Part shown: positions 20,651-31,656 of the stretch, piece after piece
How the letters are laid out: the number at the start of each line of letters is the position of its first letter
Position numbering within the stretch: position 1 is the stretch's first letter
Source: Streptococcus alactolyticus
GTDB taxonomy: Bacteria > Bacillota > Bacilli > Lactobacillales > Streptococcaceae
DNA length: 64,000 bases
Assembly: GCF_012277075.1 (NCBI RefSeq)
Contig: NZ_JAAXMT010000001.1
Span: forward strand, 1-64,000
Direction: 5' to 3'
Made by a program: the position numbers and the translations under genes
The notes under the pieces: model-generated
Told to the model about the DNA's origin: nothing
Databases searched by the model: none
The model's input: the letters and a program-made list of their open reading frames with translations, nothing else

Positions 20651-21694
20651 ATGAAAACTGCCATTTTTGAAAAAGCTGGTCTGATGACTATTGAAGAGGT
20701 ACCAAAACCACAATTACAAGCCGATGATGATGTCATTATCAAAGTCGTTCGTGCTTGCGTGTGTGGTTCTGACCTCTGGGCTTATGCCAATGGAGATAAA
20801 AAAGCAGCGCATTCGGTCAATTCAGGTCATGAAGCGCTTGGTATTGTCGAAGAAGTTGGCCCTGCCATTACTACTGTTCAACCTGGTGATTTTGTCATCG
20901 TGCCATTTACTCACGGTTGTGGGGAATGTGATGCTTGCCGTGCTGGTTTTGACGGAACGTGTGATAACCACCCTGGCTATACAAACTGGTCTTCTGGTTT
21001 CCAATCAGAATATGTTCGCTTCCACTATGCTAACTGGGCTTTGATTAAAATCCCTGGGTAACCGTCTGATTATTCAGAAGGTATGGTGAAATCACTCCTT
21101 ACTTTGGCTGATGTTATGCCAACAGGTTATCATGCTGCGCGTGTTGCTGACGTTAAGCCAGGCGACAAGGTCGTTGTTATCGGTGATGGTGCCGTTGGTC
21201 AATGTGCGGTTATTGCGGCCAAAATGCGCGGGGCTTCTCAGATTATCTTGATGAGCCGACATGAGGACCGTCAGCAAATGGCTTTGGCTTCAGGTGCTAA
21301 TGCTGTCGTTGCTGAACGTGGCGAAGAAGGTATTGCCAAGGTGCGTAACATTCTCGGTGGTGGTGCGGATGTTGCTCTAGAATGTGTTGGTACGGAAGCA
21401 GCTATTGACCAAGCTCTGGGAGTTCTCCACAACGGCGGTCGTGTTGGTTTTGTGGGTGTGCCCCATTACGATAATCGCCCACTTGGTTCAACCTTTTCAC
21501 AAAACATTATCATCGGTGGTGGTTCAGCTTCTGTGACAACCTACGATAAGCAAATTCTTCTCAAGGCTGTTCTTGACGGGGATATCAATCCAGGCCGTGT
21601 CTTTACCCACACTTATTTTCTAGATGATATCAACCAAGCCTATCAAGATATGCGTGACCGCAAAGCCATTAAATCAATGCTAGTCATGGATTAA
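20651..21694 (+). pseudogene. Zinc-dependent alcohol dehydrogenase with an in-frame stop
   Basis: A medium-chain zinc alcohol dehydrogenase of 347 codons interrupted by one TAA at 21059-21061 (LIKIPG-stop-PSDYSEGM). The frame is otherwise open from 20651 to 21694. The catalytic zinc ligands are in ACVCGSDLW and GHEALG, and the structural zinc cysteines in CGECDACRAGFDGTC. The nucleotide-binding motif is VVIGDGAVGQCAV in the second half. A single C to T change of CAA would explain the stop. The ATG at 21083 could restart a fragment with the cofactor domain but without the catalytic zinc site. It is controlled by the MerR-type promoter upstream. Confidence 0.88.
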
Positions 21695-21779: not shown

Positions 21780-22153
21780 CTTTTCTTGTTTTAGGGTTAT
21801 TGACATTAGCAGGCAGATGGTTTTTCTGCCGTGATAAAAAAGGCATTTCTGACAATATCCAATTCATCACCTTGCATGAATTGCTTAATAAAATGGATAT
21901 GAAAGAAACGTTTTTGTTGTTTATCGGACGCTTGGAACAGGCTGAAACCCAAAGAGGTTTGGACCGTTTGGGACAGATGAACCAAACCGTTTATTTCTTA
22001 AATGTGAGTGAGATGGATGCTGTGCTTTATCAGGAATTTGCCAAGGTTTATCGCATTCAAGCGGCAACCCATTTTGCTCAGTTTAATGGCAAGCACCAGT
22101 TTGTGACGGCTAATGCCCTGACAGTTGATTTGGCGTATTTTAACTATCTTTAA
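21773..22153 (+). CDS. Membrane-anchored thioredoxin-fold protein, function unknown
   Basis: 126 residues. A hydrophobic N-terminus (MRAFLVLGLLTLAGRWFF) looks like a signal anchor. The rest has the strand-helix pattern of a thioredoxin fold (ETFLLFIGRLEQAETQRG, then TVYFLNVSEMDA, VYRIQAATHFAQFNG) but no CxxC. It resembles the small bacteriocin-transport accessory proteins of lactic acid bacteria in size and layout, though I cannot assign it firmly. The ribosome binding site GGGAGG is 5 bp before the ATG. Upstream sequence suggests control by folding or by the competence sigma factor. Confidence 0.65.
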   Translation: MRAFLVLGLLTLAGRWFFCRDKKGISDNIQFITLHELLNKMDMKETFLLFIGRLEQAETQRGLDRLGQMNQTVYFLNVSEMDAVLYQEFAKVYRIQAATHFAQFNGKHQFVTANALTVDLAYFNYL

Positions 22154-22191
22154 ATCTCCATTGGTTTGCTTTACGGTTTCTATAAGTAAAC

Positions 22192-22224
22192 GTTTAGGTT
22201 TCATTAAGCTAGACCGCTTATACT
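22192..22224 (+). promoter_or_regulatory. CiaR-type promoter
   Basis: GTTTAG (22192-22197), 5 bp, ATTAAG (22203-22208), then exactly 10 bp to TATACT (22219-22224). The known CiaR site is NTTAAG-n5-WTTAAG about 10 bp before the -10 box; the match has one mismatch, in the first half. Confidence 0.6.
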
Positions 22225-22230
22225 ATAATC

Positions 22231-22368
22231 ATTCCTAATAAACTTTCTTTTTCATAGCAGTGGCTTTAATCACTGATTGAAGTTATTGTTTGGTGGGTGA
22301 TAGGTATCCTAGCCTAGAACTCCCATAAATCTCCTAATGCACCTCAACGCTTGGCGTTGAGGTTTTTT
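22231..22368 (+). ncRNA. Probable CiaR-dependent small RNA (csRNA type)
   Basis: A transcript starting near 22231 would end at the strong terminator CCTCAACGC-TTG-GCGTTGAGG (22342-22362) with six T, giving about 135 nt. A 5' hairpin is formed by CAGTG and CACTG (22258-22274). Just before the terminator is an unpaired stretch with CTCCC and TCTCCT, complementary to Shine-Dalgarno sequences, as in streptococcal csRNAs. There is no ORF with a ribosome binding site inside. Confidence 0.6.
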
Positions 22369-22372
22369 GTGT

Positions 22373-23482
22373 TTATTGGGTCTTTTTAGACGTCAAATAG
22401 TTTTCTAATAATTTTTTCTGTGGGGTTGCCATGGGATAGTCGCTCAAAGCGTCTTTTTTCACCCAGCGCAGTTCTTTGCCTTTCGTCAATTGTGGTGAAG
22501 CGACGGTGCCTTCAATCAATGTGACGGTCCACTTTCGGTGGCTAAAGGTATGTTTAACAGGCGTGAAAGTGGCCGTACTCCAAGTTGGGTGTATGTGGTA
22601 ACCTTCTTCAAAGTCTGCCTTTTTATCAGTTTGTTGGTCAGGCATTTCCAAGATAGGAAAAGACCAAAAGCCTCCTAGCAATCGTTCCTCGGTGTTTTTT
22701 TCCATGAGAAATTCCCCGTCAGCATTTCGGATGACAAAAGCAGTCAAATCAAGCGGTTTAGGCTTTTTCTTAGGCAATTTAATGGGGTATTTGTCATAGG
22801 TACCGTTTAGGTAAGCCGCACAGAAAAAGCGAATTGGTGATTCATGTGGTCGTGGGTTTTTGGCAGATTCAATGTCGGTTCCCAAATCCATCAAAGCTTG
22901 GTTAAAGTCCCCAGGACGGTCAGGGTCAATGAGTTTTTCCATCACAGCTTGAAAAATCTTCCGATTTTTAGGGTCACCGATATCGTAGTTAATTTCAAAA
23001 AGCCTAGCCATCACGCGCATCACGTTGCCATCCACAGCTGGTTCAGGCAGACCAAAAGCAATACTTGCAATAGCTCCAGACGTGTAAGGTCCAATTCCTT
23101 TCAAAGAAAGAATGTCCTTGTGGTTGGCTGGAAACTGCCCGCCAAATCGCGTCATGATATCCTGTGCAGCTGCTTGCATATTGCGGACACGAGAATAATA
23201 CCCCAGTCCTTCCCAAGCCTTCAAGAGCTTTTCTTCAGGAGTGTTTGCCAGACTTTCAATGGTGGGAAACCAATCTAAAAAGCGCTTGTAGTAGGGAATA
23301 ACCGTGCGGACCTGTGTCTGTTGTAGCATGATTTCAGACACCCAAATCGCGTAAGGGTCCTTGGTTCGTCGCCAAGGCAAATCCCGTTTTTCTTGGTCGT
23401 ACCAAGCCAACAAAGTGCGGCGAAAGGACAAAATGGTATCATCCTCCCACATCTCAATACCGTAATCTTTTAAATCAATCAT
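22373..23482 (-). CDS. mutY: A/G-specific adenine glycosylase, without iron-sulfur cluster
   Basis: 369 residues. MutY removes adenine mispaired with 8-oxoguanine. The catalytic domain has LPWRRTKDPYAIWVSEIMLQQTQV (catalytic Glu in SEIMLQQ) and the helix-hairpin-helix with the catalytic Asp (LKGIGPYTSGAIASIAFGLPEPAVDGNV). The C-terminal third (from about 245) is the NUDIX-like domain that reads 8-oxoguanine. The four cysteines that hold a 4Fe-4S cluster in most MutY proteins are absent; the region reads DLGTDIESAKNPRPHESPIRFF. This clusterless form is known in some lactic acid bacteria. Confidence 0.95.
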   Translation of the reverse strand: MIDLKDYGIEMWEDDTILSFRRTLLAWYDQEKRDLPWRRTKDPYAIWVSEIMLQQTQVRTVIPYYKRFLDWFPTIESLANTPEEKLLKAWEGLGYYSRVRNMQAAAQDIMTRFGGQFPANHKDILSLKGIGPYTSGAIASIAFGLPEPAVDGNVMRVMARLFEINYDIGDPKNRKIFQAVMEKLIDPDRPGDFNQALMDLGTDIESAKNPRPHESPIRFFCAAYLNGTYDKYPIKLPKKKPKPLDLTAFVIRNADGEFLMEKNTEERLLGGFWSFPILEMPDQQTDKKADFEEGYHIHPTWSTATFTPVKHTFSHRKWTVTLIEGTVASPQLTKGKELRWVKKDALSDYPMATPQKKLLENYLTSKKTQ

Positions 23483-23565
23483 GCCTTTATTGTATCAAAG
23501 TTTTTAGGTGGATAGTAGCAAAAGCGACTTATCGAAAAAAATAGACAAAAAAAGCAGCAAAATTC

Positions 23566-23594
23566 TTGACAATTGTAATCGGTTACATTATAAT
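23566..23594 (+). promoter_or_regulatory. Consensus promoter with cre site in the spacer, driving the micropeptide array
   Basis: TTGACA (23566-23571), 17 bp, TATAAT (23589-23594): a perfect sigma-A promoter. The spacer holds TGTAATCGGTTACA (23574-23587), which meets every position of the cre consensus TGWNANCGNTNWCA and is an inverted repeat of TGTAA and TTACA. CcpA or another LacI-family repressor bound here would block RNA polymerase directly. Confidence 0.85.
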
Positions 23595-23647
23595 AAAAGT
23601 GTAAAGAAGGATGACAGATAAAACAAGATAAGGAGGTAATGATTCTT

Positions 23648-23689
23648 ATGTTGAAACATCATGTCGCTCGGTATAAAAACGGAGATTAG
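23648..23689 (+). CDS. Micropeptide 1 of the RYKNGD array
   Basis: Thirteen codons: MLKHHVARYKNGD. AGGAGG at 23631-23636 is 11 bp upstream. An in-frame ATG at 23639 would add MIL but is only 2 bp from the ribosome binding site, so 23648 is preferred. The stop lies in the loop of the hairpin GGAGA-TTAG-TCTCC (23681-23694). This is the only copy with Ala instead of Gly before RYKNGD. It is the first ORF behind the promoter. No signal sequence, membrane segment or cysteine is present. Function unknown. Confidence 0.65.
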   Translation: MLKHHVARYKNGD

Positions 23690-23743
23690 TCTCCAACTTG
23701 GATTTAGGTAGGCAGGGATAACCTTATGAAGGTGGTGGACTAT

Positions 23744-23782
23744 ATGAGGTTTAATCTAGGACGCTATAAAAATGGTGATTAA
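23744..23782 (+). CDS. Micropeptide 2 of the RYKNGD array
   Basis: Twelve codons from the ATG at 23744: MRFNLGRYKNGD, with AAGGTGG 8 bp upstream. An in-frame ATG at 23726 would add MKVVDY and cannot be excluded. The end of the ORF forms the perfect palindrome GGTGATTAATCACC (23774-23787) with the stop in its centre. Against copy 1, the glycine codon changes GGA to GGT and the downstream partner base changes to match. Function unknown. Confidence 0.65.
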   Translation: MRFNLGRYKNGD

Positions 23783-23837
23783 TCACCCTAATCGTAAACG
23801 AGAAATCTTGTAACAAAGTACATTGGAGGGATGCCTT

Positions 23838-23882
23838 ATGTTGATGGTTAATGTAGGACGTTATAAGAATGGAGATCAATAA
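23838..23882 (+). CDS. Micropeptide 3 of the RYKNGD array
   Basis: Fourteen codons: MLMVNVGRYKNGDQ, with GGAGGG 7 bp upstream, the best-placed ribosome binding site of the set. The shared core uses different codons from the other copies (AAG and AAT where others have AAA and AAC). A hairpin AATAACG/CGTTATT (23878-23902) begins at the stop codon. Function unknown. Confidence 0.68.
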   Translation: MLMVNVGRYKNGDQ

Positions 23883-23942
23883 CGGCATAAAACGACGTTA
23901 TTTCTAAAGGGAGTGGTGCCATATTTTAGAAGAAATGGTGTT

Positions 23943-24042
23943 GGAAGCAGACGATTAGATACAGCTAGATGGAAAAAGCGACCGGTTGACTTTTTCGCTA
24001 GTAACAATAGTAATCGATAGGGCTTCTAATCATATTGCTTCC
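23943..24042 (+). ncRNA. Nested hairpin between peptide copies 3 and 4
   Basis: Perfect paired segments are nested: GGAAGCA (23943-23949) with TGCTTCC (24036-24042), GATTAGA (23953-23959) with TCTAATC (24025-24031), CTAG (23965-23968) with CTAG (23998-24001), and GAAAAAG (23972-23978) with CTTTTTC (23990-23996). Four nested stems in 100 nt suggest a structured RNA domain within the array transcript rather than chance. Confidence 0.5.
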
Positions 24043-24067
24043 ATGTTTGATAAGACAAAAGATAGAT

Positions 24068-24160
24068 ATGAAAGCAATTCATGTTAGGAGTTTTAAAGTA
24101 GAGCAAGTTAAGCCAAAGTGGCGACGAGTCAATCGCTCTTTTCGGATTAACAAACATTAG
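24068..24160 (+). CDS. Possible basic 30-residue peptide in the array
   Basis: The ATG at 24068 opens 30 codons beginning MKAIHVRSFKVEQVK and ending PKWRRVNRSFRINKH, very basic with one tryptophan. No clear ribosome binding site precedes it. A stop-free stretch at 23913-24020 in another frame ends in a similar pattern (TARWKKRPVDFF), so there may be two diverged members. It lies between RYKNGD copies 3 and 4 on the same strand. It may be coding, or the by-product of RNA structure. Confidence 0.3.
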   Translation: MKAIHVRSFKVEQVKPKWRRVNRSFRINKH

Positions 24161-24220
24161 TAGGAGTGAGTCCAATGTAAAATGAGGCTTCTGATTTGAA
24201 AGAACCCACGGAGGTGCAAT

Positions 24221-24265
24221 ATGATGAAGATGAATGTAGGCCGTTATAAAAACGGTGACAATTAA
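24221..24265 (+). CDS. Micropeptide 4 of the RYKNGD array
   Basis: Fourteen codons: MMKMNVGRYKNGDN, with CGGAGG 6 bp upstream. It is closest to copy 3 (NVGRYKNGD shared) but differs at several third positions (GGC for GGA, AAA for AAG, AAC for AAT, GGT for GGA, GAC for GAT), so the peptide rather than the DNA is conserved. It is the last ORF before the terminator at 24371. Function unknown. Confidence 0.68.
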   Translation: MMKMNVGRYKNGDN

Positions 24266-24370
24266 CTCTAGTGTACTCCCATGACAACTCTATGAGATAT
24301 AAATAACCCTAAAAAAGCAATAGTGAAAATCACTTATTGATGACAATAACTTAAAAACGTTGACTAAAGA

Positions 24371-24402
24371 GCATTCTAGCTACTTTCTAGAGTGCTTTTT
24401 TT
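24371..24402 (+). terminator. Terminator of the micropeptide array
   Basis: GCATTCTAG pairs with CTAGAGTGC, with one G-T pair and a 7-nt loop, followed by seven T. From the promoter this gives a transcript of about 800 nt. The 210 bp from here to the next gene hold a TTGACA (24502-24507) without a well-spaced -10 box. Confidence 0.85.
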
Positions 24403-24612
24403 GATGCTATCAAAGAAAAGTCTAGAAAAGCAAAATAGCAGTTCTAGTCTTTTTCTTTTGCGGGGCTTTTGTGATACCATAATAGAGATAATAACTGATC
24501 TTTGACAAGTACAAGGTGCAGTTCGTTCGTTTTTATGTTAGAATATTTCTGATACACCTAACAGATTTGTTAAGGACAGCTAACTTTTTCAATTGGTTTA
24601 AGGTAAGAAGGT

Positions 24613-26556
24613 ATGGATACAGTATTTACGAATAGAAATAAGATTAGGCTAATACTATTAGCGCTTGTTATGGCTATTCTAGTTGGTTTAGGCGCTATTG
24701 TGTTGCATGATCTTTTTGATTTTCTTTGGGAAGACATTTTACACACCGTGCCAGCGCTGCAACGTAGCGGCATTGTTTTGGTTTCTGGTTTGCTAAGTGC
24801 TTTGGGGTGGTATTTTCTTCAGAGGCAAGGAAGACGTCTAATTCCTTTGAAAAAGCAAATTTCACCTCAATCAGAAATAGAAGAATATCCCCCTTTTTGG
24901 CGACAATTAGGGCATTTGTTTTTGCAAGTTATCACGGTTGGTATGGGGGCGCCTGTTGGTAAAGAAGTGGCTCCGCGTGAATTAGGGAGTTTGTTCTCAA
25001 CGCATTTGGTTAGAAAAATTCCGCTAGATAGTGACCAGCGTTCGGTTTTGGTGGCGAGTTCGGCGGCAGCAGGTTTAGCAGCCATTTACCAAATTCCTTT
25101 TGCCAGCTTGATATTTGTCTTTGAAGTGCTTGGCATTCCTTTGACGGCTATAAATGTGGTGGTGGCTTTCATCACGACTTATGGAGCGACAGCTATTGCC
25201 CACTTGAGAATTAGCGATGCACCGCTTTACCATGTCAATCCTCAGCCTGTGACTTGGGTGACTTTTGTGGTGACGGTTATTTTAACCTTTGCGACCATAC
25301 CTGTGGCGCGTTTGTTTAGCCGTATTAGTAAACACGCCAGCCAAAATCGCACCAAAGATAGTCGCATTTTATGGCAATTGCCTTTGGTTTTTGTCCTTCT
25401 TGCTGTGCAAAGTTATCGTTTTCCAGAATTGCTGGGGAATGGGGCACCTTTGGTGCAAGCTGGATTTGACAGCTTGAATTTGCCTGATGCCTTGGTTTTA
25501 TTTACATGTAAATACGCCATTGTCTTACTCTGCTTGAGATTTGGGTCTTACGGTGGGACAATGACGCCATCGATTTCACTGGGAGTTGCTTTTGGAGAGG
25601 TGGTGTGCTTGGTGGCTGCTCTTTTTGGTTTTAATGACCCATCTCAAATCTATCTAGCCGTTGCTGCTTGTAGTTTCTTGGGAATTACCATGAATGCACC
25701 GCTAACAGCAGGCATGATTGTCTATTCTTTTATTGGTTTTCCAAAAACCTATCTCTTTCCTGTTTTGTTAAGCATTGGCTTGTTGCTGCTTATCAAATGC
25801 CGTAGAGATGCCAGTAAGGATACTGAATCAGAAACCTTTATCCCTTTACCTGACGGTTCACAATTGCATTATCAGATTGTCGGTGAGGGCGAAACCTTAG
25901 TCTTTTTACACGGTAATAACGGCAATTACCATTACTTTAGCAAACAAATTCCTTATTTCTCTCAAAAATACCAGTTGGTTTTGTTTGACAGCAGAGGTCA
26001 TGGGCAATCGACTAATGAAAAGGCGGTCAATTCCTTTGATTTGATGGCAGATGATATTGCTTATGCGCTGAAGGAATTGGGCATCGACAAGGCTACTTTC
26101 ATTGGTTATAGTGACGGGGCAAACTTGGCTTTGACTATTGCTTTGAAATACTCTGACTTGGTGACAGGTTTGGTCTTAAATGCTGGAAACATTCGCCTGT
26201 ATGGTGAGAAATGGTATGCTGGATTGTCCACACACGTTTTGTATAGTGTGATGAAGCGTTTGTTGCCGTATTTCCCACAATTGGAAAATTATATGATAAA
26301 TATGCGTTTGATGATGGAGGATATGCCTATTCATCTGAATGATTTAGCTCGTGTTACCGTTCCATCCTTGGTCTTGATTGGTGGATGGGACTTGATTTCT
26401 TATGAGCATTCGCTTGAAATTGCTAATCATCTTGGTAATGGTCATTTGGTTTCAGTACCATTTCGTCTGCACAATATGGCTTACCTCAGTCCCAAACGTT
26501 TTAATAAGGAAGTGAATCACTTTTTGACGCAACTAGAGGAGAATAAGAACGCATGA
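24613..26556 (+). CDS. ClC-type chloride channel/transporter fused to an alpha/beta hydrolase
   Basis: 647 residues in two parts. About 1-395 is a ClC-family membrane domain: MGAPVGKEVAPREL corresponds to the selectivity/gating motif, IYQIPFASLIFVFE and YGGTMTPSISLGVAFG to later conserved helices, and GITMNAPLTAGMIVYSF to the last. About 405-647 is a complete alpha/beta hydrolase: oxyanion turn FLHGNNGN, nucleophile elbow GYSDGAN, acid region IGGWDLIS and histidine in RLHNMAYL. ClC proteins normally have both ends in the cytoplasm, so the hydrolase should face the cytosol. The stop overlaps the mprF start by 4 bp (ATGA). The pairing suggests a role in membrane lipid or peptide-resistance biology, perhaps removing aminoacyl groups from lipids made by MprF; that is inference. 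Confidence 0.85.
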   Translation: MDTVFTNRNKIRLILLALVMAILVGLGAIVLHDLFDFLWEDILHTVPALQRSGIVLVSGLLSALGWYFLQRQGRRLIPLKKQISPQSEIEEYPPFWRQLGHLFLQVITVGMGAPVGKEVAPRELGSLFSTHLVRKIPLDSDQRSVLVASSAAAGLAAIYQIPFASLIFVFEVLGIPLTAINVVVAFITTYGATAIAHLRISDAPLYHVNPQPVTWVTFVVTVILTFATIPVARLFSRISKHASQNRTKDSRILWQLPLVFVLLAVQSYRFPELLGNGAPLVQAGFDSLNLPDALVLFTCKYAIVLLCLRFGSYGGTMTPSISLGVAFGEVVCLVAALFGFNDPSQIYLAVAACSFLGITMNAPLTAGMIVYSFIGFPKTYLFPVLLSIGLLLLIKCRRDASKDTESETFIPLPDGSQLHYQIVGEGETLVFLHGNNGNYHYFSKQIPYFSQKYQLVLFDSRGHGQSTNEKAVNSFDLMADDIAYALKELGIDKATFIGYSDGANLALTIALKYSDLVTGLVLNAGNIRLYGEKWYAGLSTHVLYSVMKRLLPYFPQLENYMINMRLMMEDMPIHLNDLARVTVPSLVLIGGWDLISYEHSLEIANHLGNGHLVSVPFRLHNMAYLSPKRFNKEVNHFLTQLEENKNA

Positions 26557-29069
26557 AGAAAGTCATCAATTTTTTCAAAACCAATGAATCCAAGATCAAA
26601 ATAGGATTTAGTTTATCGATTTTCATCTTGGTTTTAGTCGAATTTTTCCGATTGTCTAAAACCATTTCGTGGCCAACCTTACAGTCAGCCTTTGCTAGCA
26701 TTCCCCCTTTCAATATCGTTCTAATGATTTTGATTGGCTTAGTGGCCGTTATGCCGATGATTGGTTATGACGTTATTTTCAACCGTTTGCTTGGGACGTC
26801 GCACTCTAAAAAGTATATTATTGAAAATAGTTGGAGTATCAACACCATAAATAATATGATTGGTTTTGGTGGAATTATAGATGTTGGTTTGCGTCTAGCC
26901 TTGTACAGTGACGGCATTGACAACGGGAAAAGCATCAAGGTCTTGTCCCGTCTGCTCCCTTATTTTAGCTCTGGTTTGTCTGTCTTATCCACAGTGATTT
27001 TGCTGTTTGCAGGGTTGTTCACAGAAGGCTCCTATCTACACCGTTTTTTGATTATTTTTGTGGTAGCAGCCTTTTATTTCCCAGTCGTCTTGTGGATATC
27101 ATCAAGGGAAAACCTCACCTTTTTTGGTAATGTTGAGCGAAAGGTGCGTTTGGAATTAACTTTGATTTCTGTTTTGGAATGGTCAGGTTGTGTTGGGTCA
27201 TTCCTTGCAGTTGGGTATTTGATGGGCTTCCATTTTTCAATTGTCCAAGTTGCTGGAGCTTACATCTTAGCCATTTTGTTTGGGATGATTTCTTTCATTC
27301 CTGGTGGAATCGGAAGTTTTGATTTGACTATGATGACAGCTTTGACCATGATGGGATTTGCCAGCACTGACGTAATTTTGTGGACCTTGCTTTACCGTAT
27401 GGTTTACGATATTTTGCCATTTGCCCTTGGGGTGGTGCTATTTGTTAAAAATCTTGGTAAAACCATCAACGACCACTACAAAGGCATTCCAAAAGAATTA
27501 ACCGTTACTTTGCTAAGACGTTTGATTTATGGTTTGGTGGTTTTGTTTGGGATTTTTCTCGTGTTATCAGCTACCATTCCAGAGAAGGTCAATCAAATTC
27601 ACTGGTTGAAACAGATGAATCCTATTCATGCCAACCTCATTTGGCAATTTCCAAGTATCTTAATCGGAAGTCTTTACATTCTTTTAGGGCGTTCTTTGTT
27701 AGAGCGCGTGCGTCAAGCACTGCCTTTTGGCATTGGGCTCATTTTCGTGTCGCTTATTTGGATAAATGCCAAATCCTTTAGCAATTTCACGTCGCTTTAT
27801 TTGATTATCTTGTTACTGTTATTGGTTTTCTTCAAAAATAACCTGACTGTTGACCGTTTGATTTATTCTTGGGAATCCTTGCTGAAAGACAGCGTGATTT
27901 TTCTAGGCTTAATCATTAGCTACCTTTTCCTAGGCATGCCGCATTATTTGATTCATCACAAAGAAATTTTACAGCTTAATAAATTTGCCATTTCTTTCCT
28001 TGGAACGATTATTGTCGTGGGTATTTGCTACACGATTATCGTGCACCTTTTGCGAAAGAGCTCTAAGAAACTAGGCGAGTCTTTCGATGCGGAAGCCTAT
28101 CGTCAGTTTTTGGACACACATGGCAACACCTCTGATAGCTTTTTACCATTCTTGGGGGACAAGCAGTTGTTTTGGTACCCTAATAAACCAGAAGCAAGTG
28201 TTGTGCTTCAATTTTCACTGGATAATAACAAAGCCGTGGTGATGGGCGAGCCGATTGGCGATAAGGACAACTTCCAGCCTGCTATCAACGCCTTTATCCG
28301 AGCAGCTAGGGACCTCAATTATTCGCCAGTCTTTTATGAAATCGGTCAAGAATTGACCCTCTACCTGCATGAATGTGGGTTTGAATTCATGAAATTTGGG
28401 GAGTCTGCTTTGGTTCATCTGCAAGATTTCACTTTGACGGGTAAAAGCAGCAAGAGCTTCTGCCGTGCCCTTAACTTTGTGGAAAAAGAAGGCTTCACAT
28501 TTGATATTATCCAACCGCCTTATGCGACTGAGCTAATCACACAGCTTCGCAGCATTTCAGATTCGTGGCTGGATGGCCGTCAGGAAAAAGGCTTCTCACT
28601 AGGTTTTTTCAAGGAAGATTACTTGCAAATGACGCCGATGGCTTTGGTACGTAATGACAAAGGAAAAATCGTGGCTTTTGCCAACATTATCCTAGCTGAA
28701 GAAGAATCTGTTGTTACCGTTGATTTAATGCGTTATGACAAGGAAGAAAGCCCATCTGGCGTTATGGATTACCTCTTTATTTCTCTCTTCTTGCACTACA
28801 AGGAAGAAGGCTACCGCTACTTTGATTTGGGCATGGCGCCGCTATCAAATGTGGGAATCAATAAAGACAGTTTTATCCAAGAACGCATTGGTTTCCTTGT
28901 TTATTCCTTCACGTCACGTTTTTACTCGTTTGAAGGATTGCGTAAATACAAGCAAAAATTTGCACCAGAATGGCAACCACGCTACATTAGTTACATGAAA
29001 TCATCATGGTTAGCCTGTGATTTATTAGCGATTTACCGTATTGACAATCGCACACTAGACCAAGATTAA
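26553..29069 (+). CDS. mprF: MprF, aminoacyl-phosphatidylglycerol synthase and flippase
   Basis: 838 residues. MprF transfers lysine (or another amino acid) from charged tRNA to phosphatidylglycerol and flips the product outward, which repels cationic antimicrobial peptides. The N-terminal part (about 1-510) holds about fourteen membrane segments with the flippase region (GFGGIIDVGLRLALYSDG, FIPGGIGSFDL). The C-terminal synthase domain (about 525-838, GNAT-like DUF2156 fold) has WYPNKPEASVV, GEPIGDKDNF and YFDLGMAPLSNVG. Translation is coupled to the upstream ClC-hydrolase gene. The transferred amino acid cannot be read from sequence. Confidence 0.95.
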   Translation: MKKVINFFKTNESKIKIGFSLSIFILVLVEFFRLSKTISWPTLQSAFASIPPFNIVLMILIGLVAVMPMIGYDVIFNRLLGTSHSKKYIIENSWSINTINNMIGFGGIIDVGLRLALYSDGIDNGKSIKVLSRLLPYFSSGLSVLSTVILLFAGLFTEGSYLHRFLIIFVVAAFYFPVVLWISSRENLTFFGNVERKVRLELTLISVLEWSGCVGSFLAVGYLMGFHFSIVQVAGAYILAILFGMISFIPGGIGSFDLTMMTALTMMGFASTDVILWTLLYRMVYDILPFALGVVLFVKNLGKTINDHYKGIPKELTVTLLRRLIYGLVVLFGIFLVLSATIPEKVNQIHWLKQMNPIHANLIWQFPSILIGSLYILLGRSLLERVRQALPFGIGLIFVSLIWINAKSFSNFTSLYLIILLLLLVFFKNNLTVDRLIYSWESLLKDSVIFLGLIISYLFLGMPHYLIHHKEILQLNKFAISFLGTIIVVGICYTIIVHLLRKSSKKLGESFDAEAYRQFLDTHGNTSDSFLPFLGDKQLFWYPNKPEASVVLQFSLDNNKAVVMGEPIGDKDNFQPAINAFIRAARDLNYSPVFYEIGQELTLYLHECGFEFMKFGESALVHLQDFTLTGKSSKSFCRALNFVEKEGFTFDIIQPPYATELITQLRSISDSWLDGRQEKGFSLGFFKEDYLQMTPMALVRNDKGKIVAFANIILAEEESVVTVDLMRYDKEESPSGVMDYLFISLFLHYKEEGYRYFDLGMAPLSNVGINKDSFIQERIGFLVYSFTSRFYSFEGLRKYKQKFAPEWQPRYISYMKSSWLACDLLAIYRIDNRTLDQD

Positions 29070-29130
29070 CGTATCCAACCTCTTACTCTTATGCCTGTTG
29101 GGCAGAGTTTAGAGGTGGGTACGTTTTTTT
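29068..29130 (+). terminator. Terminator of the ClC-hydrolase/mprF operon
   Basis: ACGTATCCAACCTCT and AGAGGTGGGTACGT pair with small interruptions, followed by seven T. Confidence 0.8.
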
Positions 29131-29232
29131 AAAAATATCAGAACCTATGTCTTTACTTTTTATGTGAAAAGTTGTACTATGCCTATGTAATTTTGTTTGC
29201 TAATTTATTTATTAAAAGAGAGGATATTTATT

Positions 29233-30227
29233 ATGTTAGAACATGACATTTTGAATGATCCTTTTTTGAATAAGGGAACTGCTTTTACTTTGGAAGAACG
29301 TAAAGAACTTGGTTTAGTTGGTTTACTTCCTCCAAAAGTTCAAACCATTGAAGAACAAGCAGAACAAGCGTATGCTCACTATCAACGTAAATCATCGATT
29401 TGGAAAAACGCCATTTCTTGATGGAAATTTTCAACACAAACAGAACCTTGTTCTACTATTTGTTTAACGAACACGTTGTTGAATTTAACCCAATTGTTTA
29501 CGATCCAGTTATTGCAGAATCTATCGAACAATCCAGTGATTTGTTTGTTGATCCACAATATACGGCTTTCCTTTCTGTTGAACACCCTGAAGACATTCTT
29601 GATACCCTTAAAAATGCAGCAGGCGATCGTAATATCCGCCTTATCGTTGTAACCGATGCAGAAGGTATTTTAGGTATTGGTGACTGGGGTACACAAGGTG
29701 TGGATATTTCAGTCGGAAAATTGATGATTTACACAGCAGCAGGTATTGACCCTAAAACGGTTTTACCAGTTGTCATTGACGCTGGTACAGACCGCGAAGA
29801 ATTATTAAACAACCCATTTTATCTAGGAAATCGCCACAAACGTATCCGTGGTGAAGCTTACTACGACTTTATCGACCAATTTGTTAAAGAAGCTGAAGAT
29901 TTGTTCCCTGATTTGTACTTGCACTGGGAAGATTTCGGACGTAGCAATGCGGCTGTTATCCTTAACAAATACAAAGATAAAATCCCAACATTCAACGACG
30001 ATATCCAAGGAACTGGTATCATTACTCTAGCAGGTATCTATGGTGCGCTTGATATCACTGGTGAAAAATTAACAGACCAACGTTACCTTTGCTTCGGTGG
30101 AGGAACAGCGGGTGCAGGTATTGCCCACCGCGTTCTTTTGGAAATGATGGAACAAGGCCTTACAGAAGAAGAAGCTTACAGTCGTTTCTACATGGTAGAT
30201 AAACAAGGTTTGCTCTATATGCCATAA
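29233..30227 (+). pseudogene. Malic/malolactic enzyme, frameshifted and truncated
   Basis: The start ([18 protein letters not shown]) with AGAGG upstream is typical of NAD-dependent malic and malolactic enzymes. After KSS near 29393 one base is missing; the frame that should continue ([15 protein letters not shown]) is offset and runs to 30227. It includes the substrate region ([17 protein letters not shown]), the acidic metal site (FNDDIQGTG) and the start of the NAD fold ([14 protein letters not shown]). It then ends after [11 protein letters not shown], about 200 residues short of the usual 540. Two independent lesions show an old inactivation. No malate permease gene is nearby. Confidence 0.88.
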
Positions 30228-30235
30228 TGAACCTT

Positions 30236-30439
30236 ATGTTTAGCAAAAAAGCGAGTAGCGCTATGTGGGTTGTTCAGAAATTGTATTGGCGGAGCGGTCA
30301 ATAATATGTCCAAACACAACGGATTTTTACTAGCCGTGACGAAGCGGTGCAATTACGCAAAAGCCTTGATTGTGCCACAGAGTTGTATGAAAGCAACCGT
30401 TCCATCTATGATGAGGGAGATTTCAGAACTTCTAGATAA
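30236..30439 (+). pseudogene. Unidentified gene remnant
   Basis: One frame of 68 codons with a single internal TAA (30302-30304). The second part reads like ordinary protein (TSRDEAVQLRKSLDCA, then ELYESNRSIYDEG). It is not the missing C-terminus of malic enzyme. It ends a few bases before the rpsF promoter. It is probably the 3' end of a gene lost in the same deletion that truncated the malic enzyme; identity unknown. Confidence 0.35.
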
Positions 30440-30444
30440 ATCTC

Positions 30445-30473
30445 TTGCACATTCTAGGATAATATAGTATAAT
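30445..30473 (+). promoter_or_regulatory. Promoter of rpsF-ssb-rpsR
   Basis: TTGCAC (30445-30450), 17 bp, TATAAT (30468-30473). Confidence 0.8.
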
Positions 30474-30481
30474 TATTTATT

Positions 30482-30520
30482 GTGAGTATGCCTCACTTAC
30501 TCGTGTCCAAGGATGCGAGT
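30482..30520 (+). promoter_or_regulatory. Two leader hairpins before rpsF
   Basis: GTGAG-TATGC-CTCAC (30482-30496) is followed at once by ACTCG...CGAGT (30499-30520) with an inner TCC/GGA pairing. Many Firmicutes have an S6:S18-binding leader at this place; the position fits, but I cannot confirm the protein-binding motif. Confidence 0.45.
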
Positions 30521-30546
30521 CATTAGACCAAAAGGAGGAAATATCA

Positions 30547-30837
30547 ATGGCTAAATACGAAATTCTTTATATTATTCGTCCAAACATTGAAGAAGAAGCT
30601 AAAAATGCTTTGGTAGCACGTTTTGACTCTATCTTGACTGACAACGGTGCGACTGTTGTAGAATCAAAAGACTGGGAAAAACGTCGTCTTGCATACGAAA
30701 TCAAAGATTTCCGTGAAGGACTTTACCACATTGTCAACGTTGAAGCTGAAAACGCTGAAGCTCTTAACGAGTTTGACCGTCTTTCAAAAATCAACGGCGA
30801 CATTCTTCGTCACATGATTGTTAAACTTGACGCGTAA
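30547..30837 (+). CDS. rpsF: Ribosomal protein bS6
   Basis: 96 residues, full length. It binds 16S rRNA in the platform of the small subunit as a pair with bS18, encoded two genes downstream. The start [13 protein letters not shown] and the segment [22 protein letters not shown] are characteristic. AAAGGAGG precedes the ATG. First gene of a three-gene operon with a strong promoter. Confidence 0.97.
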
Positions 30838-30848
30838 GAAGGTGTGTT

Positions 30849-31358
30849 ATGATAAATAATGTAGTACTTGTTGGTCGTATGACCCGCGATGCAGAACTTC
30901 GTTACACCCCATCAAATCAAGCTGTTGCGACTTTTACCCTAGCGGTAAACCGCAACTTTAAAAACCAAAATGGTGAACGCGAAGCTGACTTTATCAACTG
31001 TGTGATTTGGCGTCAGCAAGCAGAAAACCTGTCTAACTGGGCTAAAAAAGGCACATTGGTTGGTATCACAGGACGTATTCAAACCCGTCACTATGAAAAC
31101 CAACAAGGTCAACGCGTTTACGTAACAGAAGTAATTGCAGATAATTTCCAAATCTTGGAAAGTCGTGCTACACGTGAAGGCCAATCAGGTGGTTCTTACA
31201 ATGCTGGTTACAATAACCAACCATCATTTGGGGATAATTCACATGATAGTGGTTTTTCATCACAACCTTCACAACAAACACCAAATTTTGGTCGCGACGA
31301 AAGCCCATTTGGCAATTCAAACCCAATGGACATTTCAGACGACGACCTTCCATTCTAA
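30849..31358 (+). CDS. ssb: Single-stranded DNA-binding protein
   Basis: 169 residues. The OB-fold (about 1-105) starts [21 protein letters not shown] flexible Gly/Asn/Gln/Ser-rich linker follows (about 110-155), then the acidic tip DISDDDLPF that recruits repair and replication proteins. It lies 11 bp after rpsF. This is the housekeeping SSB; the shorter competence SsbB is not in the window. Confidence 0.97.
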
Positions 31359-31416
31359 AGTATGGAATGACCAAGTTTATCGGACTTGAAACACTATAAT
31401 ATAAAGGAGAATACAC

Positions 31417-31656
31417 ATGGCTCAACAACGTCGTGGCGGATTCAAACGCCGTAAAAAAGTTGATTACATCGCAGCTAACAAAATTGAATATGTTGATTAC
31501 AAAGATACTGAGCTTCTTAGCCGTTTCGTATCAGAACGTGGTAAAATTCTTCCACGTCGTGTTACTGGAACATCAGCTAAAAACCAACGTAAAGTAACAA
31601 CAGCTATCAAACGCGCTCGCGTTATGGCTCTTATGCCATTCGTAAACGAAGACTAA
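31417..31656 (+). CDS. rpsR: Ribosomal protein bS18
   Basis: 79 residues, very basic. [21 protein letters not shown] and the end [23 protein letters not shown] belong to bS18, the partner of bS6. The zinc-binding cysteine seen in some bS18 proteins is absent, as is usual in streptococci. Its own AAAGGAG precedes the ATG. Confidence 0.97.

Follow-up and report, generated by a model that had tools for sequence, protein, structure and literature searches.

The Enterococcus faecium hydrolase AhyD, as described by Smith et al. in 2013, is reportedly encoded beside an aminoacyl-phosphatidylglycerol synthase, with synteny in more than 60 species. In the accessible passages of PMC13123819, AhyD is presented as the counterpart of MprF in E. 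faecium, where it recycles lysyl-phosphatidylglycerol (Lys-PG) to phosphatidylglycerol (PG), and ahyD of Enterococcus faecalis is co-induced with mprF2. The Gram-negative Lys-PG/Ala-PG hydrolases AcvB, VirJ, and PA0919 are likewise serine hydrolase partners of an MprF/LpiA-type enzyme, according to the available parts of PMC13197417. The MprF of Streptococcus agalactiae makes both Lys-PG and lysyl-glucosyl-diacylglycerol (Lys-Glc-DAG) in the portions available of PMC8893666 and PMC11630815, so that both lipids are candidate substrates of a streptococcal hydrolase of this kind; the word "hydrolase" is absent from the main texts of PMC8893666 (the Lys-Glc-DAG paper) and PMC11630815.

The window analyzed here is a stretch of 64,000 nucleotides within contig C10 of a Streptococcus genome of 1.70 Mb in 29 contigs. 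Its gene at 24613–26556 on the forward strand is a single open reading frame of 647 amino acids, in which, as the original prediction had stated, a ClC membrane protein and an alpha/beta hydrolase are encoded together, with matches to Voltage_CLC (PF00654; residues 87–388; E = 9e-50; 170 bits against a cut-off of 24.8) and Abhydrolase_1 (PF00561; residues 428–525; E = 1e-22) in one frame. The predicted 4-bp overlap of its stop with the mprF start was also confirmed, being the ATGA at 26553–26556, and the same spacing of −4 was computed for several stand-alone hydrolase–mprF pairs. The downstream protein is assigned as MprF by the NCBIfam model for the bifunctional enzyme (NF033480; 881 bits, cut-off 600), and its Pfam transmembrane-region match lies under the cut-off of that family (29.3 vs 33.4). 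At the thresholds used, one MprF and one AhyD-type hydrolase were found in this genome. The features are as follows.

24613..25797, forward strand: ClC membrane domain, about residues 1–395 (PF00654, E 9e-50; aligned with 33 stand-alone Streptococcus ClCs)
24964..24966, forward strand: codon of Glu118 in GKEVAP, corresponding to the external gating glutamate (ClcA chains aligned by phmmer)
25798..25833, forward strand: linker, residues 396–407, covering the end of the G052 ClC and the stand-alone hydrolase starts in the alignments
25834..26553, forward strand: putative AhyD-type alpha/beta hydrolase domain, residues 408–647 (PF00561; 29–39% identity to 42 stand-alone hydrolases)
26110..26112, forward strand: codon of Ser500, the nucleophile in GYSDGA (invariant, 43/43)
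26389..26391, forward strand: codon of Asp593, the triad acid (invariant, 43/43)
26470..26472, forward strand: codon of His620, the triad histidine (invariant, 43/43)
26553..26556, forward strand: ATGA overlap, four bases shared by the fusion stop and the mprF start
26553..29069, forward strand: mprF, lipid aminoacyl transferase and flippase, 838 amino acids (NF033480, 881 bits, cut-off 600)

It is probable that this gene represents a lineage-specific fusion, in which a hydrolase of the AhyD type is held by the ClC protein at the inner face of the membrane beside MprF. The alternatives weighed below overlap with this explanation, and their likelihoods do not add up to a whole.

Two further observations concern the neighboring genes. 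Directly downstream of mprF, at 29233–30440 on the forward strand, the gene for a malolactic enzyme is broken, with a frame change near 29400, and its remaining frame matches only positions 53–326 of the 536-position family model. On the other side, a zinc dehydrogenase frame at 21083–21694 (forward strand) is only 203 amino acids long and matches the C-terminal part of families of ~330–370 positions; it is possibly another broken gene.

In searches at the levels of genus, order, phylum, and a collection of named genomes, the fusion was seen in this one assembly only, no chain with both ClC and hydrolase being found among the genomes searched besides the window's own. In the genus (284 genomes; hydrolase at E <= 1e-20), the frame around the hydrolase is long (649) in the window alone, and the matches at 27 other places lie in frames of 153–263. 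In the order, a hydrolase match was obtained in 160 of 395 genomes, with frames of at most 288 among the matches listed, the window's excepted, and a ClC match (E <= 1e-30) in 60 of the 395, with no other frame longer than 488 amino acids among the matches listed. The phylum search gave a hydrolase match in 4 of 209 genomes, the three besides the window's having frames of at most 243. The named collection, which may omit records of the window's genome or of a very near one, yielded 414 confirmed hydrolase stretches, and in the best 80 of these 414 the hydrolase frames have 209–286 codons and none is fused. When the named genome contigs were scanned with the whole fusion protein, 24 pattern stretches were obtained and none was confirmed, and among 633 plasmid records with a match, none covered 80% of the fusion query. 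A second fusion, hinted at by a long alignment in genome G043, was discarded on finding that the downstream gene there is a purine nucleoside phosphorylase. The best hydrolase relatives are stand-alone proteins of ~230–260 amino acids, and the relatives listed outside the window's genome are separate proteins, in agreement with the prediction for MprF-partner hydrolases; there was no sign in these searches of a fusion kept beyond one lineage. A literature search found no title on a ClC–hydrolase fusion within the titles, partial abstracts, and passages covered. The ClC–hydrolase chain is a new form, seen in a single genome, and the coupling of the hydrolase to mprF is already known biology.

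The finding of no second assembly with the fusion would fit an assembly or sequencing artefact, by which two adjacent genes are read as one, but the junction itself makes this very improbable: near the hydrolase start, no ATG, GTG, or TTG in the reading frame is accompanied by a Shine-Dalgarno sequence, and both other reading frames contain stops. Had only a stop codon been lost, the start of the hydrolase would still be present; since no such start was found, more than one error would be needed to produce the artefact. The original prediction had allowed that the fusion might be limited to this assembly because of a missing stop codon. The limitation to one genome stood, whereas a single lost stop codon does not explain a hydrolase without its own start bearing a ribosome-binding site; ordinary readthrough or a frame error was rejected as the simple explanation on the same ground. 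In the alignments, only a few residues separate the join from the point where the stand-alone ClC of genome G052 ends and from the points where several stand-alone hydrolases start, and the hydrolase domain begins where its stand-alone relatives begin in the alignment. At near-invariant columns the fusion departs at 1 of 24 in the hydrolase and 1 of 54 in the ClC; among the remaining rows the median number of departures is 0 and the highest is 1 (hydrolase) or 2 (ClC). If the fusion is recent, the conserved columns in both halves would also be explained by earlier selection.

The ClC half is 57–58% identical to the stand-alone ClC of G052 (401 amino acids) and 34–37% identical to 22 other aligned Streptococcus ClCs. 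In the tree, the fusion and G052 ClCs form their own clade (100/100), a placement to be taken with care as long branches meet there. The predicted completeness of the ClC was only partly upheld: by comparison with its own family the half is complete, 33 other aligned Streptococcus ClCs (386–430 amino acids) ending at about the same place, whereas the alignments to CLC-ec1 end before the C-terminal helix. Of 34 distinct genomes from which a ClC was sampled, 31 have it between punA and deoD; G052, G069, and G020 are the exceptions, the ClC locus of G020 beginning near a contig end. In the window's own genome, 61 bases separate the punA and deoD matches, and no ClC intervenes (G000:C14:424412-425777). 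No ClC match (E <= 1e-8) was found beside the other hydrolase/mprF loci over flanks of 1.5 kb or 5 kb or, where a contig ended, less. An old three-gene order of ClC, hydrolase, and mprF was not supported, in view of these flanks and of the usual position of ClC between punA and deoD.

These data bear on a neutral origin, in which a chance deletion joined two genes whose halves keep their own unrelated jobs, a serious contender to which we assign somewhat less than an even chance. Consistent with it are the occurrence in a single genome and the nearest sampled ClC, a stand-alone gene on a contig (9.8 kb) with no hydrolase or mprF match; in addition, a genome of 1.70 Mb in which the malolactic gene just after mprF is broken suggests that gene decay is under way. 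The retention of the gene order, of the mprF overlap, and of family-conserved residues in both halves speaks against mere chance, and a neutral fusion differs from the tethered hydrolase that we favor only in whether the tether matters.

The hydrolase half retains an intact nucleophile, acid, and histidine, as had been predicted: Ser500, Asp593, and His620, together with 18 other columns, are invariant in 43 aligned hydrolases (the fusion and 42 stand-alone proteins), to which an SDG.N signature is common. At the near-invariant Gly preceding the catalytic His, the fusion has Leu. Its identity to the hydrolases of Enterococcus loci is 33–40%. The structure model of the hydrolase half has a mean pLDDT of 93.6, with residues 393–401 below 50. 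Among solved structures, arylesterases are nearest by sequence, and a Pseudomonas hydrolase and esterases by fold; the nearest folds, those of esterases and related alpha/beta hydrolases, are matched with TM ~0.7–0.8 and do not identify the substrate. The 50 PDB fold matches listed either are named as alpha/beta hydrolases or are taken to belong to this class. Membership in the VirJ/AcvB family was considered and rejected, VirJ being absent from the 12 Pfam families matched by the 43 hydrolases.

The assignment of the hydrolase to the MprF-partner type, as originally proposed, is supported by adjacency in many genomes. In the genus, hydrolase matches were found in 25 of 284 genomes, the window's own included, and in 18 of these 25 (17 stand-alone and the window's fused) the hydrolase immediately precedes mprF, both being on one strand. 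In the remaining seven (G015, G033, G051, G150, G173, G234, and G279) the hydrolase is not shown beside mprF; the contig of G015 ends beside the hydrolase, and five of the seven have short mprF-like genes (frames of 546–573) elsewhere. Conversely, an mprF match at E <= 1e-60 was obtained in 29 genus genomes, being near full length in 23 (interrupted by stops in G121). The hydrolase precedes mprF in 18 of these 23 genomes, the other five (G170, G204, G217, G258, and G276) having a full-length mprF match and no hydrolase at E <= 1e-20. Outside this set, mprF is directly downstream of the hydrolase in 28 of 29 newly fetched Lactobacillales loci (the exception being L091), and it lies within 250 bases downstream in 68 of the best 80 of the 414 named loci, which are mostly from Enterococcus and also from S. 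agalactiae; in the stretches examined for the other 12 of these 80, no mprF was found. Two single cases may be added. In S. agalactiae ATCC 13813, an AhyD-type hydrolase lies directly before mprF (L159 5001-5699; L033). In G120 (L056/L061), the hydrolase preceding mprF falls into two frames, and in the near relatives G016 and G269 it is one frame.

Hydrolases without an adjacent mprF, and mprF genomes without the hydrolase, indicate that the family may have other substrates. It is conceivable that the hydrolase acts on something else, such as other esters, peptides, or signals, its place beside mprF being incidental; the generic alpha/beta hydrolase matches, the nearness of the solved arylesterases (by sequence) and of the Pseudomonas hydrolase and esterases (by fold), and the several homologues away from mprF would all be in line with this. 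We nevertheless regard it as unlikely, given that the adjacency to mprF covers loci of Streptococcus, Enterococcus, and Peptoniphilaceae.

As for the origin of the locus, the nearest genomes by MutY among 278 others are at most 78% identical. The interval from mutY to rpsF is 7.06 kb in the window, and 1.06, 1.43, and 1.86 kb in the relatives with both genes in view (three of eight fetched); matches to ClC, hydrolase, and mprF were absent from the fetched stretches of the mutY loci of all eight. The eleven genomes nearest by MutY (L217–L227) have neither mprF nor the hydrolase at the thresholds used. From the long interval and the relatives without the unit, it appears that this lineage alone acquired the ClC–hydrolase–mprF unit by insertion, or alone retained it. 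In the MprF tree (40 of 87 sequences), the window's MprF is basal to the main Streptococcus clade (95/87). The hydrolase tree (58 of 110) puts the fusion domain with sequences of Enterococcus and others, away from the main Streptococcus clade, and its long branch (1.84) has a placement that the tree program rated unsure; the two trees therefore do not clearly reflect one shared history.

The region ahead of the fusion gene has a feature of its own. At 23566–24263 on the forward strand, four mini-ORFs of 12–14 codons follow a perfect TTGACA-17-TATAAT site; all four have a Shine-Dalgarno-like sequence and end in (G/A)RYKNGD(x). Peptides with ..YKNGD occur beside mutY in all eight relatives fetched, including a S. 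agalactiae genome, with at least two per stretch when at most one per frame is registered. The YKNGD mini-ORFs form a conserved Streptococcus mini-gene array, and no paper was found in a text search of the literature for RYKNGD.

The C-terminus of CLC proteins is normally cytosolic. The basic sequence IKCRR follows the last hydrophobic helix of the ClC, and no N-terminal membrane helix or signal-like stretch was detected with a hydropathy cut-off in the stand-alone homologues (0/42 and 0/41 rows; taking the first ATG as the start would lengthen a few of these rows). Together, these features fit the cytosolic position that had been predicted for the hydrolase from the ClC topology. In the mechanism we favor, the hydrolase coding sequence would have been joined, without its own start, to the end of the ClC gene, and a single message would yield a ClC whose attached hydrolase lies in the cytosol against the inner leaflet, where the synthase domain of MprF is expected to release its product. 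The hydrolase would counteract MprF by cleaving the ester bond of the aminoacyl group in aminoacyl-phosphatidylglycerol and perhaps, in streptococci, also in lysyl-glucosyl-diacylglycerol, both being presumed substrates. Acting on the inner-leaflet aminoacyl lipids before they are flipped by MprF, it may set their level jointly with MprF, the two being made from one message, and the gain from the fusion would presumably be tethering.

The ion-conducting features of the ClC half were compared with those of CLC-ec1. Glu118 in GKEVAP aligns with the external gating glutamate of CLC-ec1, which we take to be E148, and is invariant in 24 of 24 aligned ClCs; the roles of E203, the GSGIP motif, and the C-terminal tyrosine are assumed likewise. 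At the position of the internal proton glutamate E203, the fusion ClC has valine, as does the best PDB match (3ejz) in the alignment. The C-terminal helix of CLC-ec1, before which the alignments end, bears an ion-coordinating tyrosine. By the two-glutamate criterion for 2 Cl-/H+ exchange, as given in the accessible part of PMC6909576, the valine indicates that the fusion ClC is not a textbook 2 Cl-/H+ exchanger.

Ion-gated control, in which the hydrolase would be switched by the conformation of the ClC, or by anions or protons passing through it, so that aminoacyl-lipid turnover follows chloride, pH, or fluoride, draws on the covalent tie between the two proteins, on the external gating glutamate being kept, and on the conserved ClC columns, by which the channel half is not visibly decaying; furthermore, ClC proteins of Lactobacillus reuteri alter pH and membrane potential (PMC6909576, in the part available). 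The valine at the internal proton glutamate position is unfavorable to such control, the short linker of low confidence in the model would rather argue for loose tethering, and no Rfam family was detected at the gathering threshold in 22000–31500, a riboswitch in front of the gene being rejected at this threshold. We consider such control, which the original prediction had raised as a possibility for chloride or pH, to be unsupported and quite unlikely. In the full-length model the ClC half is poor, most blocks having pLDDT < 60, because the alignment held only hydrolase rows, and no interdomain contact is claimed from it. The fuller form of this idea, that the ClC senses or moves an anion and switches the linked hydrolase, the surface charge due to aminoacyl lipids being set by chloride, fluoride, or pH, appears improbable; if it is true, a lipid-editing enzyme would here serve as the effector domain of an ion channel.

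With the tethered hydrolase as the preferred reading, the locus draws attention to the hydrolase beside MprF as the little-studied half of a resistance-related lipid cycle. The hydrolase before mprF in streptococci, including S. agalactiae, offers a target for the question of how Lys-PG and Lys-Glc-DAG are removed, and the fusion is a natural construct for the effect of a membrane-held, or anion-path-linked, hydrolase on lipid turnover.

Compared with known systems, the ClC half belongs to the same fold family as E. coli ClcA (CLC-ec1) and the CLC-F fluoride antiporter, ClcA chains being the best matches of the ClC family profile (E = 1e-22) and CLC-F being also matched (4e-16). Unlike CLC-ec1, it has valine in place of the internal glutamate. 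The GSGIP motif and the C-terminal tyrosine are not recognizable in the weak alignment. The ClC encoded between punA and deoD in streptococci is of the same family as that of the fusion, but is stand-alone and belongs to a separate clade. On the hydrolase side, AcvB is periplasmic with an N-terminal domain (PMC13197417, in the part available), whereas the hydrolases aligned here have no export signal and no VirJ match. The closest counterpart is AhyD of Enterococcus, the label "AhyD-type" being suggested by position and homology: both are alpha/beta hydrolases with an intact triad, predicted from sequence to lack an export signal and encoded directly before mprF. The AhyD-type relatives are stand-alone proteins, whereas the domain in the window, without its own start, forms the C-terminal half of a ClC protein.
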